From: Peredibacter starrii
GTDB lineage: Bacteria; Bdellovibrionota; Bacteriovoracia; Bacteriovoracales; Bacteriovoracaceae
Reading direction: 5' to 3'
Assembly: GCF_034259205.1 (NCBI RefSeq)
Contig: NZ_CP139487.1
Coordinates: 868,001 to 932,000 of the forward strand
Length of the DNA: 64,000 nucleotides
The notes under the pieces are model-generated. The model made no database searches. It had not been told where the DNA came from and saw only the letters and a program-made list of their open reading frames with translations. Below, piece after piece: positions 44,850 through 50,464 of the stretch. Positions within the stretch are counted from its first letter, which is position 1; every line of letters begins with the position of its first letter. Made by a program: the position numbers and the translations under genes.

Positions 44850-44978
44850 AAGAAAACCTAGCTGAGTGTGGGACGATGAAGGGTGTTTGTGCAGGCCTTA
44901 GAGGAACTTCGAAGAGGTTTTAACTTCTTGTTCCGGGGATATTGTGTGAACTTTTTAGGAGTCCTCACCCTCAGCTCA
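44850..44978 (-). ncRNA. Predicted sigma-54-driven structured small RNA, copy A
   Basis: On the minus strand the RNA begins with AGCTGAG (from 44976), which pairs with CTCAGCT (44866-44860). Further pairs follow (CAC with GTG), then a large open bubble, and an apical hairpin in which GGAAC pairs with GTTCC and GAAGTT-side bases close a 6-base loop (44902-44935). The 3' arm is followed by AGGTTTTCTT. A second element at 50.1 kb has the same 117-base span between stem ends and a matching block of about 35 bases. A sigma-54 promoter is placed so that transcription starts at the foot of the stem. No coding frame is conserved between the copies. The outline recalls 6S RNA or Qrr-like regulators, but I recognise neither. 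Confidence 0.6.
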
Positions 44979-45185
44979 ATATCCTTAGAGCAGGATTCGT
45001 GCCAACTTTAAGTCGTTGAAAAGCCGTACTGATTCGGTCTGGAATGGTGCCAGATTGATTCTGCGGTTCTTTTTGAGACCAGGGGGCGGAGTCAGAAAAA
45101 ACCGCTTTAACATCTAGTAAAGCTTTATCACCCAGAGAGAATTTTAGCTGAACCTAAAACTCGATTGTGGATAAAGGTAGAGATC
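44979..45185. promoter_or_regulatory. Remainder of the GNAT to pseudopilin gap: control region with inverted repeats
   Basis: Besides the sigma-54 promoter at 44990-45004, this stretch holds an inverted repeat TCTGG (45038-45042) / CCAGA (45050-45054) and a larger one with arms GCGGTT (45063-45068) and AACCGC (45100-45105) extended by T/A-rich bases. The larger repeat lies about 86-128 bases upstream of the predicted RNA start, the usual place for an activator site. The plus-strand pseudopilin gene must also have its promoter here; I cannot name it. Confidence 0.4.
44990..45004 (-). promoter_or_regulatory. Sigma-54 (-24/-12) promoter of small RNA copy A
   Basis: The minus strand reads TGGCACGAATCCTGC, against consensus TGGCACG-N4-TTGC: one mismatch (C for T in the -12 part). 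GG (45003/45002) and GC (44991/44990) have the required 12-base offset. Counting C as -12 puts the start at 44978, two bases from the closing stem. Confidence 0.75.
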
Positions 45186-46751
45186 ATGCTTAAGAAGCAA
45201 GGCGGTTTCAGTTTAGTTCAAGTGTTAATGTCGATTGGGCTCCTATCTGCACTTGGACTTGGTGTTGCTCAACTGATCCAAGATTCTAATAAGGCCGTTA
45301 ATAAGATGGAAGTAGATGCGGATCTTTTAGTCGTCTACCGAAGCATTATGAGCGTGCTCTCAGATCCGCTCAATTGCGCAGAAACGTTCCGAAATCGTCT
45401 TGCTGCAAATACACCAAATGCTACGATTCAAATTAAGAAGGATGTGAAAGGCGTCTTCGTTAATGAATTTCCTGCTAACCAAGTTTATGGTTCAAAACAA
45501 TTAAAAATTCTAAGTTATTCTCTTTCTGATGCGGCAGCTGATGTTGATGTGGCCACTAAGAATACCACTCATCTTATTATTGAATTCGATCGTGGTATGG
45601 GGAAAGTCGGATCAAGAATCATAACGAAAAAAATTGTTCTGAATGTGCAGGTCGATGCTTCGAACCGGATCACATCTTGTTCGGCCCATGGTGAAACCGG
45701 AAGTGATATCTGGAAATACTCGGCAAATCAGAGCGATATTTTCTTCAGTGGAGGTAATGTAGGAATCAATACCAGTACTCCTGCGGAGAAACTTCACATC
45801 TATCGAGGAAATGCTAAAGTTTATATAGACGGGAATGGTGGTTTAGGTGGACCTCCTTCTGGAATGTTTCTTACAGGAAATAATATTACCGGCCAACAAA
45901 TTGGACTCTTCTTTGGAACTGACGGCCCAATTTACGAACGTGGATTGGTATATGACACTGCCTCGGCCAGATTGAGTCTCGTTAATAATGCAAGTTCTGC
46001 TACGAGGACTCCACGCTTAGTTGTGAAACCAGATGGTAATATCGGAATTGGCGAGATTGATCCCAATCATTTGTTGAGTCTCAAATCACATGGCACTCTC
46101 ATCGGAAACAATGCTCAAATCATGATTAGAGACCCTGATAATCTTTCGAGAGGTCTGGGTATTGGTTATGAGCAAACCAATGCGGTCCAGACTTTTGCCT
46201 TCCTTCAGACATCATTTGATGGAATGGGTCTTTATCCACATCTTGTTATGCAGGCCTCGGGTGGAAATGTCGGAATAGGAACTACAACTGCCTCTCATAA
46301 GCTTGATGTTGTTGGCACCAATGGTACAACGGTGGCCCATTTTTCCGATGGGTCTCAAAGCTGTTCAATTCGTCCAGCAACTTCCGGCAACATCACTTGC
46401 TCTTCGGATGAAAGGCTTAAGAAAAATATTAAGGCATTCTCTAATTCAGAAGCTTTGAGAAAAATTCTGAAGCTTCAAACTGTGACTTTTGAATGGAAGA
46501 GTCTTAATGATGGTGCCCATACTGGCTATATAGCTCAAGCGGTAGAAAAAATTATTCCTGAACTCGTGAGCACTGATAAATCTGGATACAAGCAAATTGG
46601 CCAGATGGGATTAATTCCATGGATAACGAGTGCCATTAAAGAGTTGTATACTGATTCCAATGACAGAATCAAAAAGCTTGAAGCTGAAAATGCTGAGTTA
46701 AGGATTCGGGTTGAGAGAATTGAGAAGATGTATGCGGCTAAAAGTATTTGA
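45186..46751 (+). CDS. Pseudopilin-like protein with S74 tail-fibre chaperone domain
   Basis: 521 residues from the ATG at 45186 (a TTG at 45165 is possible). The N-terminus KKQGGFSLVQVLMSIGLLSA is a type III (prepilin) signal, cleaved after Gly-Gly before Phe, but the +5 glutamate of major pilins is Gln. After a pilin-like helix and about 130 residues of globular sequence come fibre-type segments (GGNVGINTSTPAEKLHIYRG, PDGNIGIGEIDPNHLLSL, GGNVGIGTTTASHKLDVVG). The end is a Peptidase_S74 intramolecular chaperone domain: SSDERLKKNIKAFSNSEALR, then TGYIAQAVEKIIPELV, and a coiled-coil tail. This suggests a pilus-linked fibre or adhesin that trimerises and clips itself. No other pilus genes are next to it. 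Confidence 0.85.
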   Translation: MLKKQGGFSLVQVLMSIGLLSALGLGVAQLIQDSNKAVNKMEVDADLLVVYRSIMSVLSDPLNCAETFRNRLAANTPNATIQIKKDVKGVFVNEFPANQVYGSKQLKILSYSLSDAAADVDVATKNTTHLIIEFDRGMGKVGSRIITKKIVLNVQVDASNRITSCSAHGETGSDIWKYSANQSDIFFSGGNVGINTSTPAEKLHIYRGNAKVYIDGNGGLGGPPSGMFLTGNNITGQQIGLFFGTDGPIYERGLVYDTASARLSLVNNASSATRTPRLVVKPDGNIGIGEIDPNHLLSLKSHGTLIGNNAQIMIRDPDNLSRGLGIGYEQTNAVQTFAFLQTSFDGMGLYPHLVMQASGGNVGIGTTTASHKLDVVGTNGTTVAHFSDGSQSCSIRPATSGNITCSSDERLKKNIKAFSNSEALRKILKLQTVTFEWKSLNDGAHTGYIAQAVEKIIPELVSTDKSGYKQIGQMGLIPWITSAIKELYTDSNDRIKKLEAENAELRIRVERIEKMYAAKSI

Positions 46752-46760
46752 CGCTTTTCC

Positions 46761-46776
46761 ACTTCGGCGCCGAAGT
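46761..46776. repeat. Perfect 16-base palindrome after the fibre gene
   Basis: ACTTCGGCGCCGAAGT is its own reverse complement and stands 9 bases after the stop of the pseudopilin-fibre gene. There is no T run, so it may be a factor-dependent stop, an RNA-end stabiliser or a protein-binding site rather than a classical terminator. Confidence 0.6.
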
Positions 46777-46902
46777 CTTAAGATTGGCTAATAAATTCGG
46801 CAACTTACGCTCTGTCTAAACCCTATACACCCCTGGAAATATATTCAATCGGTCCCCTGAAAATCCACCAGCTCTCTATAATCCTTCCATCAAGGATTAT
46901 TA

Positions 46903-48768
46903 ATGAAGAAGCTCACTATTCTTTCACTAGTGCTTTTCACAGCTCTTGCTCAGGCAGGAGAGGTTGAAGTTAGGGGCTCAGAGTTCTTTAAAAAAGAAGT
47001 AGAGGAGTCGCTAAGACTTCTGCCAACGAATTACCTTGATGCTGTTAAAAAGAAAGTAACGATTGAAGAAGAGTCACTAAAGTCAGATCAGTTCTATACA
47101 GAGAATCTTTGTAAATTAAATGAGAAAGTAAAATTCGGTTATACCCTAAGACACAAAGTCGCGATCAGCTCACGCCTTGTGAGGCTTGCGAATTCAAATG
47201 CGGATTCGTTTGATTGCGCTCATGGCTCGTTTCAGAACATGCTTCGTGCCACTATCATTCACGAACTTACTCACGTAAAAGACAATGCTGAGAAGATCAG
47301 CTCTGACGTAGATTTTCAGCGCATTGTTGGAATGAAGCGTGTGAATTCTCGTAGTAAAAAATCTGTGATGAATGCCAACACTTCGACTTCACCTGATGCT
47401 TACGAGTTTACAAATCTTGAAGAATCTCTAGGTGTAAACGTTGAGTATCTGGTGCTTGATCCTGAGTTTGAGTGTCGTAAACCAGCGACTGCTAATTTCT
47501 TATCAAAAAAGCTTAACATCGCTCTTAAGGGCGAGTGTCAGAAGAACTATAAAGTTCTCGCTCAGTCTGCTTTCCTGGAAGATAATTATCAACTTGCCAC
47601 AAGCATTGATCCAAAACGTGTTTACCAAGTTCATTATCTTTTCGCCGGTAAAGGGCAACAGCTTATGTCTCGATGGGGACATGCGATGTTCCGCCTGATT
47701 GTTTGTGCTCCTCACAGAAAGACAGTTGGCCCTGAGTGTATGAATGATGTTTCTCATCATCTGGCCTTAAGCTACCGCGCTTATATGTCGGACATGAATC
47801 TTAACTATATGAAGGGCATGTTTGGTGGTTACCCATCACAACTTTTCGTCATGCGCTTCCTGGAGATTCAGCAAGAGTATACTAAGTTTGAACTTCGTGA
47901 GCTTTACAGCGTTCCACTAAAAATGACGGCGGCACAAAAGCAAGATTTCATCGATATCACGCTTGAGCGCTACTGGACTTACCAAGGTAAGTACTACTTC
48001 TTCGATAATAACTGCGGTACTGAAACGAAAAAACACCTGGCAGTAGCATTGGATGAAGAACAGGCCGATATGATTTCATCAATCACTCCGCTTAAGCTTT
48101 ATAACGATATCGTAAAACACGAAGACGATCTCTCTGACGGTAACCTTCAAGGTCTATCGAAAGATCAAATGATCGCCAAACGCTACTTGATACCAAGCAT
48201 GTTCCAGGACTTTAACTCAAGCTATCAGTTCCTACGTCCTTATATGAGTTCATTTAAAGACTCTGACTTCAATAAGTTCCTGAAGAAGACCACGGCGAGA
48301 GCTCGTCTGATGGATCTGGAGAAGTTTAAGAACGACTTTCTTGGAATGACAGACGTAAATCTTAAAAAACAAATCATGATGAAGCTTACTCATCTAGAGC
48401 GATACCTTTCTACTCGTTACATGATGGCCATTCCTAAAAAGGCGATGGAAATGATGGATAAGGACCAAGACCTTAAAGATGCCGTGATGCAAATGGGTGA
48501 GTCTCTTAAAGAACTGAATGTTCAACCATGGAACGTAGTGAACTCTCTGTACGGTGTACCAACCGCGGATGAGTTCCAGGAACTGTATCCAAAATTCATC
48601 GAAGGTCGCAAAAACGCTGTGGCCTCTTCACTTGATCAACAAATGGAAAACCTAGATTCATTACTTGGCAGATCTTACTTCACGAAAGAACTGGCCGAGA
48701 TGGAAGACATGAAAAAAATTAAAACGATTACGAATGAATTTGTTCAGAACGTAAGTGTAATTAAATAA
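46903..48768 (+). CDS. Exported metalloprotease-like and Lnb/DUF4105-like fusion
   Basis: 621 residues. Signal peptide 1-18 (ending LAQA). Residues 115-130 hold IIHELTHVKDNAE, an HExxH zinc motif (H120, E121, H124), in a putative metalloprotease domain. From about 240 to 390 the sequence follows the Lnb N-terminal (DUF4105) pattern: YLFAGKGQQLMSRWGHAMFR with the conserved Gly-His (H260), and YYFFDNNCGTETKKHL with the Asn-Cys pair (C371). Lnb-type domains carry out lipoprotein N-terminal acyl transfer, and related ones are cysteine hydrolases. The last 200 residues are helical and unknown. -10 TATAAT lies at 46877-46882 and AAGGA precedes the ATG. It is followed at once by three small exported paralogues. 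Confidence 0.8.
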   Translation: MKKLTILSLVLFTALAQAGEVEVRGSEFFKKEVEESLRLLPTNYLDAVKKKVTIEEESLKSDQFYTENLCKLNEKVKFGYTLRHKVAISSRLVRLANSNADSFDCAHGSFQNMLRATIIHELTHVKDNAEKISSDVDFQRIVGMKRVNSRSKKSVMNANTSTSPDAYEFTNLEESLGVNVEYLVLDPEFECRKPATANFLSKKLNIALKGECQKNYKVLAQSAFLEDNYQLATSIDPKRVYQVHYLFAGKGQQLMSRWGHAMFRLIVCAPHRKTVGPECMNDVSHHLALSYRAYMSDMNLNYMKGMFGGYPSQLFVMRFLEIQQEYTKFELRELYSVPLKMTAAQKQDFIDITLERYWTYQGKYYFFDNNCGTETKKHLAVALDEEQADMISSITPLKLYNDIVKHEDDLSDGNLQGLSKDQMIAKRYLIPSMFQDFNSSYQFLRPYMSSFKDSDFNKFLKKTTARARLMDLEKFKNDFLGMTDVNLKKQIMMKLTHLERYLSTRYMMAIPKKAMEMMDKDQDLKDAVMQMGESLKELNVQPWNVVNSLYGVPTADEFQELYPKFIEGRKNAVASSLDQQMENLDSLLGRSYFTKELAEMEDMKKIKTITNEFVQNVSVIK

Positions 48769-48784
48769 CCCTTTGGAGGATTTT

Positions 48785-49186
48785 ATGAAAAAACTACTTT
48801 TTGTTGCTGCTCTTGCTCTAACTGTTGGCTCTATGAACTCTTTTGCTGTTTCTTTCGTTGAAACGACAGCTTCTCCGTTCATTACGGCGACTCGTCTTCT
48901 TGAGTCTACGGTTGCGGCCCCTTTCCTTTCAACTCTAGCTACAGTTCAGCAGCGTGGTGTTGCTGGTCGTGAGCAGATTAAAGATGAGATGGTTGCTCTT
49001 AACGACGATATCGTTGCTGGTCGCGTGAGTTCGATCGATGAAGTTCGTCAGCCTGCCCTAAAAGAGCTTTTCGCTGAAATCGCTTCAGATGAATCACAAA
49101 TGGATCAAATTAATTCAGTAGTAACTGAAGGTTCTGAACTTCACAAGGTTGCGACTGCTGTTTCTTACTTAATGCTTGCTGAGTAA
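48785..49186 (+). CDS. Small secreted protein, tandem family member 1
   Basis: 133 residues from the ATG at 48785, chosen for the GGAGG 6 bases before it. Signal peptide ends NSFA. The mature part is TTASPFITATRLLESTV, then LSTLATVQQRGVAGREQIKD, DEVRQPALKELFAEIASDES and a hydrophobic end. It shares about two-thirds of its mature residues with member 3, and fewer with member 2. Function unknown. Helical throughout, exported, and encoded right after the metalloprotease/Lnb-like gene with a 16-base gap. Confidence 0.85.
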   Translation: MKKLLFVAALALTVGSMNSFAVSFVETTASPFITATRLLESTVAAPFLSTLATVQQRGVAGREQIKDEMVALNDDIVAGRVSSIDEVRQPALKELFAEIASDESQMDQINSVVTEGSELHKVATAVSYLMLAE

Positions 49187-49205
49187 TCCTCGGCTTGGAG
49201 GTCCT

Positions 49206-49619
49206 ATGAAGAAAATTTTGATGGCAATGATTTTGATGTTCTCGATGAATTCTTTTGCGCAGGTTGCGCTTGAGATGTCGACGGCCACATCTCTATCACC
49301 TTTTGCAACTGCCACTCGGTTTCTGGAATACGGCTCGGTAACGACTCTGGCCCCTTTCGCTTTGACGATTGCCACGGCCCAGTCGAGAGGAGTTGCAGGG
49401 AAGGAACAAATCAAGGACGAATTAGTGGAACTTAATGAGGACATGATCGCAGGACGCGTGACTACAATTGAAGAGGTTCGTCAGCCAACGTTAAGAGAGT
49501 TGTTCGAAGAAATTGCTGCGGATGAAGAGCAAATGAACAACATTAAGTCTGCGCTTCAGATGGATACGGAGCTAAAAACTATCTCGACAGCGGTTACGAT
49601 TGCGATGTTGATTGAATAA
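49206..49619 (+). CDS. Small secreted protein, tandem family member 2 (divergent)
   Basis: 137 residues from the ATG at 49206, with TTGGAGG as ribosome binding site. Signal peptide ends NSFA. It keeps the family core (SPFATATRFLEYGSV, RGVAGKEQIKDELVELNEDM, EEVRQPTLRELFEEIAADEE) but has an extra insertion in the N-terminal part and different hydrophobic residues, so it is the most diverged of the three. Codon choice and spacing match its neighbours. The three genes most likely arose by two tandem duplications. Confidence 0.85.
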   Translation: MKKILMAMILMFSMNSFAQVALEMSTATSLSPFATATRFLEYGSVTTLAPFALTIATAQSRGVAGKEQIKDELVELNEDMIAGRVTTIEEVRQPTLRELFEEIAADEEQMNNIKSALQMDTELKTISTAVTIAMLIE

Positions 49620-49647
49620 AAAATTAAACCATTCCTTAGGAGGAATT

Positions 49648-50040
49648 ATGAAAAAACTAATCATGCTTGCTGCTTTGGCCCTTTCAGTTAATGCTTTCGC
49701 CGTTTCATTTGTTCAAACGACGGCTTCTCCATTTGTTACTGCAACTCGTCTGGTTGAGCTTACAGTTCTTGCTCCTTTCGCAAGTACTCTTGCTACTGTT
49801 CAACAGCGTGGTGTTGCTGGCCAGGAACAACTAAAAGATGAACTGGTTGCTCTTAACGATGATATGCTTTCAGGTGCTGTTAAAACAATCGATGAAGTTC
49901 GTCAGCCTGCTCTTAAAGAGCTTTTCGCTGAGATCGCTGCTGATCAATCACAAATGAATAGCATCAATTCTGTGCTTGAATCTGATTCTGATCTTGAAAA
50001 AATCGCTGGAACAGTTGCTGCTGTTCTTATGAATCAATAG
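49648..50040 (+). CDS. Small secreted protein, tandem family member 3
   Basis: 130 residues from the ATG at 49648, with AGGAGG before it. Signal peptide ends NAFA. The mature part (AVSFVQTTASPFVTATRLVE, ATVQQRGVAGQEQLKDELVA, DEVRQPALKELFAEIAADQS) is close to member 1, suggesting recent duplication or gene conversion. A strong bidirectional terminator follows 20 bases after the stop. Confidence 0.85.
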   Translation: MKKLIMLAALALSVNAFAVSFVQTTASPFVTATRLVELTVLAPFASTLATVQQRGVAGQEQLKDELVALNDDMLSGAVKTIDEVRQPALKELFAEIAADQSQMNSINSVLESDSDLEKIAGTVAAVLMNQ

Positions 50041-50060: not shown

Positions 50061-50097
50061 AAAAAAAAAGCCCGAGTTAAAACTCGGGCTTTTTTTA
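50061..50097. terminator. Bidirectional terminator shared by the secreted-family operon and small RNA copy B
   Basis: A stem of at least 7 base pairs (GCCCGAG/CTCGGGC, extendable to AGCCCGAGTT/AACTCGGGCT) spans 50069-50090, with nine A residues before and seven T residues after. It can stop the plus-strand triplet and also the minus-strand RNA that starts near 50229. Confidence 0.93.
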
Positions 50098-50230
50098 TTT
50101 TTTAAAACCTGCAGGGGAAGGAACGGGGATATTTAAAGGGAGGGCTTTATGGGGAAAAGTGTAGTGGTTTAAGCTAGCTTTTCCTGGGACATTTTCTGAA
50201 CTTTTTTATGGAGTTCGGTCCCCCTGCTTG
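50061..50230 (-). ncRNA. Predicted sigma-54-driven structured small RNA, copy B
   Basis: On the minus strand GCAGGGG (50227-50221) pairs with CCCCTGC (50117-50111), and inside it GAAC (50216-50213, read as minus-strand GAAC) pairs with GTTC (50124-50121). An open bubble follows and an apical hairpin in which GGAAAAG pairs with CTTTTCC (50153-50184). The span between outer stem ends is 117 bases, the same as in copy A. The block on the 5' side of the bubble, ACTCC-ATAAAAAAGTTC then A-rich and TCCC, agrees with copy A in about 28 of 35 positions. The transcript should end at the bidirectional terminator. C-rich and CTCC-type unpaired stretches could pair with ribosome binding sites; this is inference. 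Confidence 0.6.
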
Positions 50231-50464
50231 GAGACATATAAAGCAAGGGTGATGCCAATGAATAAGGATGCGAGTTCAGTCATAACCTCCCAAAAAGATA
50301 TAGTTATTCCTATCGTCAAAATAAAAAAGCTCTTAGTCAGATTGCCCCAACGGGAAAAAAGGGTAGGGGCAAAACTGTCAGATATGATTTGTAAGGTTGT
50401 GTAAGTTCCAAGATTCTACGAAGTTAACCCAATTCTATTGATGTAAGAATATGTAAGACGCGTG
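50228..50464. promoter_or_regulatory. Upstream region of small RNA copy B, no gene
   Basis: No open frame with a ribosome binding site is seen. Besides the sigma-54 promoter, there is an inverted repeat TTGCCCC (50342-50348) / GGGGCAA (50366-50372) about 112-142 bases upstream of the predicted RNA start, where a sigma-54 activator site would be expected. It differs in sequence from the repeat at the same relative place upstream of copy A. Confidence 0.4.
50243..50257 (-). promoter_or_regulatory. Sigma-54 (-24/-12) promoter of small RNA copy B
   Basis: The minus strand reads TGGCATCACCCTTGC. TGGCA and TTGC match the consensus, and GG to GC has the required 12-base offset. Counting C (50243) as -12 puts the start near 50231, within about 3 bases of the closing stem, the same arrangement as in copy A. 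Confidence 0.75.

Follow-up and report, generated by a model that had tools for sequence, protein, structure and literature searches.

The window, a stretch of 64,000 nt of the Peredibacter starrii genome, harbors two elements on its minus strand, copy A (44978 to approximately 44850) and copy B (50231 to approximately 50061), that are predicted to be paralogous structured RNAs driven by sigma-54. In most of the genomes examined, the locus lies between the gene series rapA-thioredoxin-DUF6952-GNAT and a secreted-protein gene accompanied by a DUF5522 gene. The structured cores were delimited at 44850-44978 in copy A (covariance model R2 E-value of 4.2e-22, model match 44854-44980) and at 50104-50231 in copy B (R2 E-value of 2.2e-23). 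A profile of copy A homologues from which the window copies were left out recovered copy A at 1.3e-26 and copy B at 4.6e-11, the corresponding copy B profile matched copy A at 2.8e-9, and all other matches to these profiles in the 64 kb had E-values above 1. An earlier sequence-only reading of the same DNA had considered the resemblance between the copies hard to obtain by chance, which these cross-matches bear out; its estimate of about 28 identical bases in a shared block of 35 came close to the 26 of 35 obtained on recounting.

The absence of a reading frame common to A and B, already apparent from the window, extended to 51 homologues of 113 to 133 nt that contained no conserved ORF and differed by indels of 1-2 nt, by which a peptide-coding gene was ruled out. 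A cis-acting leader or riboswitch was likewise discarded since no gene lies downstream on the same strand for the RNA to control. The element bounds first proposed had to be extended, as copy B continues to an intrinsic terminator at 50061-50089 (minus strand; GCCCGAG..CUCGGGC followed by a U-run) and each copy is preceded by at least one enhancer-like dyad. The terminator stem has base changes on both sides across the copy B homologues and serves both directions, shared with a convergent gene ending at 50040. Copy A has no separate intrinsic terminator; a U-tract (UUUUCUU) follows its closing stem, as it does in most copy A homologues, such that the closing stem may itself act as the terminator.

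Sigma-54 promoters and upstream dyads

The minus-strand sigma-54 promoters claimed for both elements were found in the sequence as described, with TTGGCACGAATCCTGCT at 44989-45005 for copy A (predicted start 44978) and TTGGCATCACCCTTGCT at 50242-50258 for copy B (predicted start 50231). In the pattern TTGGCA[C/T]-N5-6-TGC, the GG at -24, the GC at -12, and the spacing between them were kept in 40 of 40 aligned A and B homologues, and the predicted start fell 1-4 nt ahead of the closing stem P1. Exact TTGGCAYNNNNNYTGCTNTA boxes occur eight times in the 4.15 Mb genome, two of which belong to A and B, so that these promoters rank among its best sigma-54 boxes. The genome encodes RpoN (PF04552 at G000:C1:3640443, E-value of 5.5e-63), while Hfq (PF17209) was not found in it by searches whose controls were positive.

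A de novo search of 48 upstream regions identified the palindrome TGGGGYCA-NN-TGRCCCCA, which recurs approximately -80 to -120 upstream of A, of B, and of the homologues in other genera, with a log-likelihood at width 18 of 219.5 vs. 27.9 on shuffled sequence, a difference inflated by kinship among the sequences. This distance is the usual place of sigma-54 activator sites. The best instance in the window was TGGGGCAATCTGACTAAG upstream of copy B (50332-50349, minus strand), with a position weight matrix (PWM) score of 14.7 against a 99% null of 10.4 and retention in the B homologues, followed by a second and weaker dyad-like site, TCTGACAGTTTTGCCCCT (50365-50382, minus strand; score 7.2). The copy A dyad AGAATCAATCTGGCACCA (45045-45062, minus strand) is a weak match to the palindrome, its score of 9.3 lying between the 95% (7.7) and 99% (10.4) null values. 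No activator gene was present beside the RNAs among the annotated neighbors.

Secondary structure and covariation

The RNA fold comprises a closing stem P1, a short inner stem P1b, a large central bubble, and a long apical hairpin P3. The 7-bp closing stem of the sequence-only reading was recovered in both copies (AGCUGAG/CUCAGCU in A and GCAGGGG/CCCCUGC in B), and the P1 arms of copy A, AGCUGAGGG (44968-44976) and CACUCAGCU (44860-44868), belong to a stem with compensatory changes at every pair. P1b consists of four pairs (GAAC/GUUC) joining the 5' and 3' sides inside P1, represented in copy A by GGAC (44961-44964) and GUCC (44871-44874); an AU to GC double change occurred in five sequences including copy A with zero mismatches at that pair, and P1b was absent from the model used for building the alignment. 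P3 spans 44903-44934 in copy A, contains AAAACCU in its loop (44921-44915), and showed compensatory changes at 11 of 12 pairs. The 5' side of the bubble (44935-44960), with the sequence UCC..AAAAGUUCA..AAUAUCCCC, was the most conserved unpaired stretch among the 51 homologues and is proposed as an interaction seed.

Single copies folded approximately two standard deviations better than dinucleotide shuffles (z of -2.0 for A and -2.3 for B), and the case for a structured RNA therefore rests on comparison. In the 51-sequence alignment, 90.8% of the cells in P1, P1b, and P3 were paired and 20 of the 24 pairs had changed on both sides. Double-change cells numbered 239 against 81.7 in shuffles, the probabilities from which are optimistic because the homologues are related and alignments A3 and A4 were partly fitted to the fold. 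Sliding the partners by one column abolished the signal, the covariation was GU-tolerant, and P3 kept its covariation when the sequences were aligned blind to the fold. A local hairpin P2 (GAACUCC..AGUUC), the first choice of RNAalifold on group A, was rejected in that it lacked covariation and was broken in several sequences whereas the long-range P1b covaries; P2 may represent an alternative conformation.

The AACC of the P3 loop is complementary to a GGUU immediately after P1, which in copy A extends to a 7-bp match between AAAACCU and the tail AGGUUUU (44853-44859, minus strand). The longest loop-tail match averaged 4.90, compared to 4.25 +/- 0.10 when tails were dealt to other loops, and the fifth pair, the next outward, was U-A in 18 sequences, A-U in 16, and C-G in one. 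The signal was significant in group A alone and weak in group B alone (p of about 0.06), and in genus g5 both the loop and the tail partners were lost. Since this complementarity exceeds that of shuffled partners, pairing of the P3 loop with the tail is probable, and it would close the RNA into a pseudoknot around a large bubble that has its most conserved unpaired sequence on the 5' strand.

The closing stem, internal loop, large bubble, and apical hairpin recall the outline of 6S RNA, and this likeness, pointed out from the window sequence, still stands. Membership of the 6S family was ruled out, as neither copy matched RF00013 at the gathering threshold or at E 5 and the genome's own 6S RNA matched it above the Rfam cut-off at a separate locus (G000:C1:457625-457815, 56.8 bits). 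That A and B are 6S-like mimics directed at RNA polymerase and made by the sigma-54 polymerase is consequently very unlikely, the more so as the proposed pseudoknot joins loop to tail, unlike 6S.

The pseudoknot and the strongly conserved bubble could also form the pocket of a stand-alone ligand-binding RNA serving as a reservoir or sensor, for which a precedent in the same phylum is merRNA (PMC3627812). Bdellovibrio bacteriovorus produces eight attack-phase RNAs (AP-sRNAs), three of the eight from FliA-type promoters, and merRNA carries a c-di-GMP aptamer (PMC3627812). Although these are likewise noncoding RNAs of a predator, A and B differ from them by their sigma-54 promoters and by the lack of a match to a c-di-GMP aptamer or other riboswitch in the Rfam scan, even at E 5. 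A ligand-binding role is decidedly unlikely given that result, the C- and A-rich character of the conserved unpaired strand, and the presence of two diverged copies that a reservoir does not need.

Distribution and history of the locus

When the other 25 genomes of the genus were searched, copy A and copy B were each found in about 20, and the covariance model placed the RNA in 25 of the 26 genus genomes, mostly in exactly two copies, and once each in two further Bacteriovoracaceae genera (g37 and g5). Fold and promoter were retained across these homologues; joint loss of the stem and the promoter, which the sequence-only reading had held would count against it, was looked for and both were found to be kept. 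In a phylum sample of 291 genomes, the R2 model detected nothing convincing outside the three Bacteriovoracaceae genera, and the named records carrying the element were mostly Bacteriovorax and Bacteriovoracaceae assemblies (a family of the Bdellovibrionota). One genome (G017) carried a third copy, copy A having undergone another tandem duplication there (L115 6154-6280 and 6478-6608), and weak second model matches in G021 and G023 (E-values of about 0.007) are candidates. Two other weak matches (L044 and L073) were rejected as further members, for they look like coding sequence and have neither the promoter nor this fold.

In many genomes of the genus some 150-230 nt separate the two copies, B being the upstream one, and g5 has a single copy in the same neighborhood; no homologue adjoining the GNAT gene was found in other genera. 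Other genomes, including that of the window, hold unrelated gene cargo between A and B, amounting to 5.1 kb in the window. The conserved locus and the close tandem pair in relatives therefore indicate that the window copies arose long ago in tandem and were later pushed to their present distance of 5 kb. The intervening region (45165-50040 in the window and the same spot in relatives) is an insertion hot spot, with cargo varying between S74-tailed pilin-like proteins, giant ORFs, and Lnb-like proteins. In the window, three tandem paralogous genes for small secreted proteins lie between the two RNA genes (48773-50040), and their copy number varies among genomes.

Such variable cargo might suggest that the conserved stretch is a DNA element or the remnant of a mobile element, such as a palindromic insertion hot spot, and no RNA gene at all. 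This is scarcely credible in view of the strand-specific order of promoter, stem, and terminator, the predicted start just before P1, the GU-tolerant covariation, and the fixed synteny of the pair. Searches of viral contigs, plasmids, and phages returned no match to the element, by which a mobile origin of the RNA pair was also ruled out. Four observations back the proposal of paralogous sigma-54 structured RNAs: the promoter is conserved in every aligned homologue, the stems covary, the gene was duplicated in tandem, and the genome encodes RpoN. On these sequence comparisons A and B almost certainly constitute a real sigma-54-controlled noncoding RNA pair.

Relation to known RNAs and possible mode of action

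A scan of A and B against Rfam at the gathering thresholds and at E-values up to 5 returned weak look-alikes only, mostly of the terminator, in agreement with the sequence-only reading that recognized no known family. As they match no cataloged family, A and B probably represent a novel small regulatory RNA in these predators. The best explanation as a whole, and one that is moderately favored, is that they are two genes of one new small noncoding RNA family in the Bacteriovoracaceae.

The analogies with Qrr and GlmY/GlmZ drawn from the window were fair for promoter and pairing and did not reach further. The Qrr RNAs of Vibrio have several paralogues, as A and B do, and, as proposed for A and B, are controlled by sigma-54 with an NtrC-type activator and carry regions that pair with ribosome-binding sites; however, they depend on Hfq and have no closing stem around the molecule, while Hfq was not detected in the host of A and B. 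GlmY/GlmZ are likewise a paralogous pair, with sigma-54 promoters in some hosts, but they differ in their fold and in acting through a RapZ and Hfq cascade. The Qrr, GlmY, and GlmZ covariance models all left A and B unmatched.

Pxr of Myxococcus and its relatives is closer, being a structured RNA of about 100 nt that has a sigma-54 promoter with an upstream enhancer region and acts as a gatekeeper of Myxococcus development, and of which Cystobacter has diverged paralogues in tandem, each under a sigma-54 promoter of its own (PMC5568312, PMC5684412). The neighbors of the pxr gene are pxrR/nla19, which encodes its activator, and a gene for an NADH dehydrogenase; the RNA itself is predicted to form three successive stem-loops (PMC5568312, PMC5684412). 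A and B resemble it in their sigma-54 promoters, tandem paralogues with separate promoters, host without detected Hfq, and occurrence in a bacterium with a life cycle. In contrast, they lie away from NADH dehydrogenase and activator genes, between rapA-trx-DUF6952-GNAT and the secreted-protein gene, and their P1/P1b enclose P3 in one closed, probably pseudoknotted body. Pxr is the nearest described analogue of A and B in control and copy number, but identity with Pxr is not indicated, since synteny and predicted fold differ.

A and B are most likely an Hfq-independent, Pxr-analogous pair of regulatory small RNAs that would act through the conserved unpaired UCC/UCCC strand. Each gene appears to comprise an upstream palindrome of the sigma-54-activator kind, a -24/-12 promoter, and a start 1-4 nt before P1, followed by an RNA body of P1, short P1b, large bubble, and long P3 that the P3 loop and the tail after P1 probably tie into a pseudoknot, with an intrinsic terminator in copy B. 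An NtrC-type activator together with sigma-54 RNA polymerase would switch on both genes under one nutrient or stress state. With no Hfq, the closed pseudoknotted body could shield the RNA ends and display the unpaired UCCA-AAAAGUUCA-AAU-UCCC, whose UCC and UCCC motifs may base-pair with target mRNAs at their ribosome-binding sites to reduce translation, while two copies might supply dose and partial specialization as in Pxr or Qrr. The conservation of UCC and UCCC on the unpaired bubble strand suggests such ribosome-binding-site pairing, and the probability that A and B act by pairing with mRNAs, as argued from this C-rich strand, falls just short of an even chance.

The conserved unpaired bubble and the compact covarying body would equally suit a protein site, in which case A and B would be decoys that capture a regulatory protein in amounts set by sigma-54. 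CsrB and RsmY capture CsrA in this manner and CrcZ, itself driven by sigma-54, captures Hfq. A decoy is nevertheless rather unlikely, in that A and B typically have a single GGA, located at the P3 base, in place of the repeated GGA loops of CsrB/RsmY, and no Hfq was found as a CrcZ-type decoy would need.

The enhancer motif of A and B also preceded the sigma-54 boxes of a gene for a DksA-type zinc finger protein and of a small ORF of 31 codons, with a weaker instance at a DUF1328 membrane gene, a pattern hinting that these genes may form one regulon. In a broader and tentative scenario, A and B would be a new pseudoknotted, sigma-54-switched, Hfq-independent RNA family that arose by a single duplication in the genus ancestor and governs, in predators of the Bacteriovorax type, a decision tied to the life cycle or to starvation, jointly with the DksA-like gene that shares their promoter and enhancer.

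Very little has been described of the small RNAs of the Bacteriovorax group, and none from Bacteriovorax was found reported in the literature searched, which leaves out most subscription journals. The A/B pair offers a conserved example with a testable fold, start, and switch in a host without detectable Hfq, and its parallel with Pxr in another life-cycle bacterium makes it a direct handle on the use of sigma-54 by these predators.

Several other sigma-54 boxes were identified in the genome. An exact box with two copies of the enhancer motif precedes the gene for a zinc finger protein of the DksA/TraR type at G000:C1:1111792 (L139), where a 26-nt stretch of the promoter is 96% identical to that of copy A. 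At G000:C1:2024296 (L140), a box and the enhancer motif precede a transcript region with short ORFs only, one of 31 codons with a hydrophobic start, and a GC hairpin, so that the locus could encode a small protein or a further small RNA. Exact boxes at G000:C1:199059 and 440195 (L134 and L135) precede two paralogous genes of approximately 257-293 codons, the products of which share the start ..AFGLF..GxYNAVVINxESHL...
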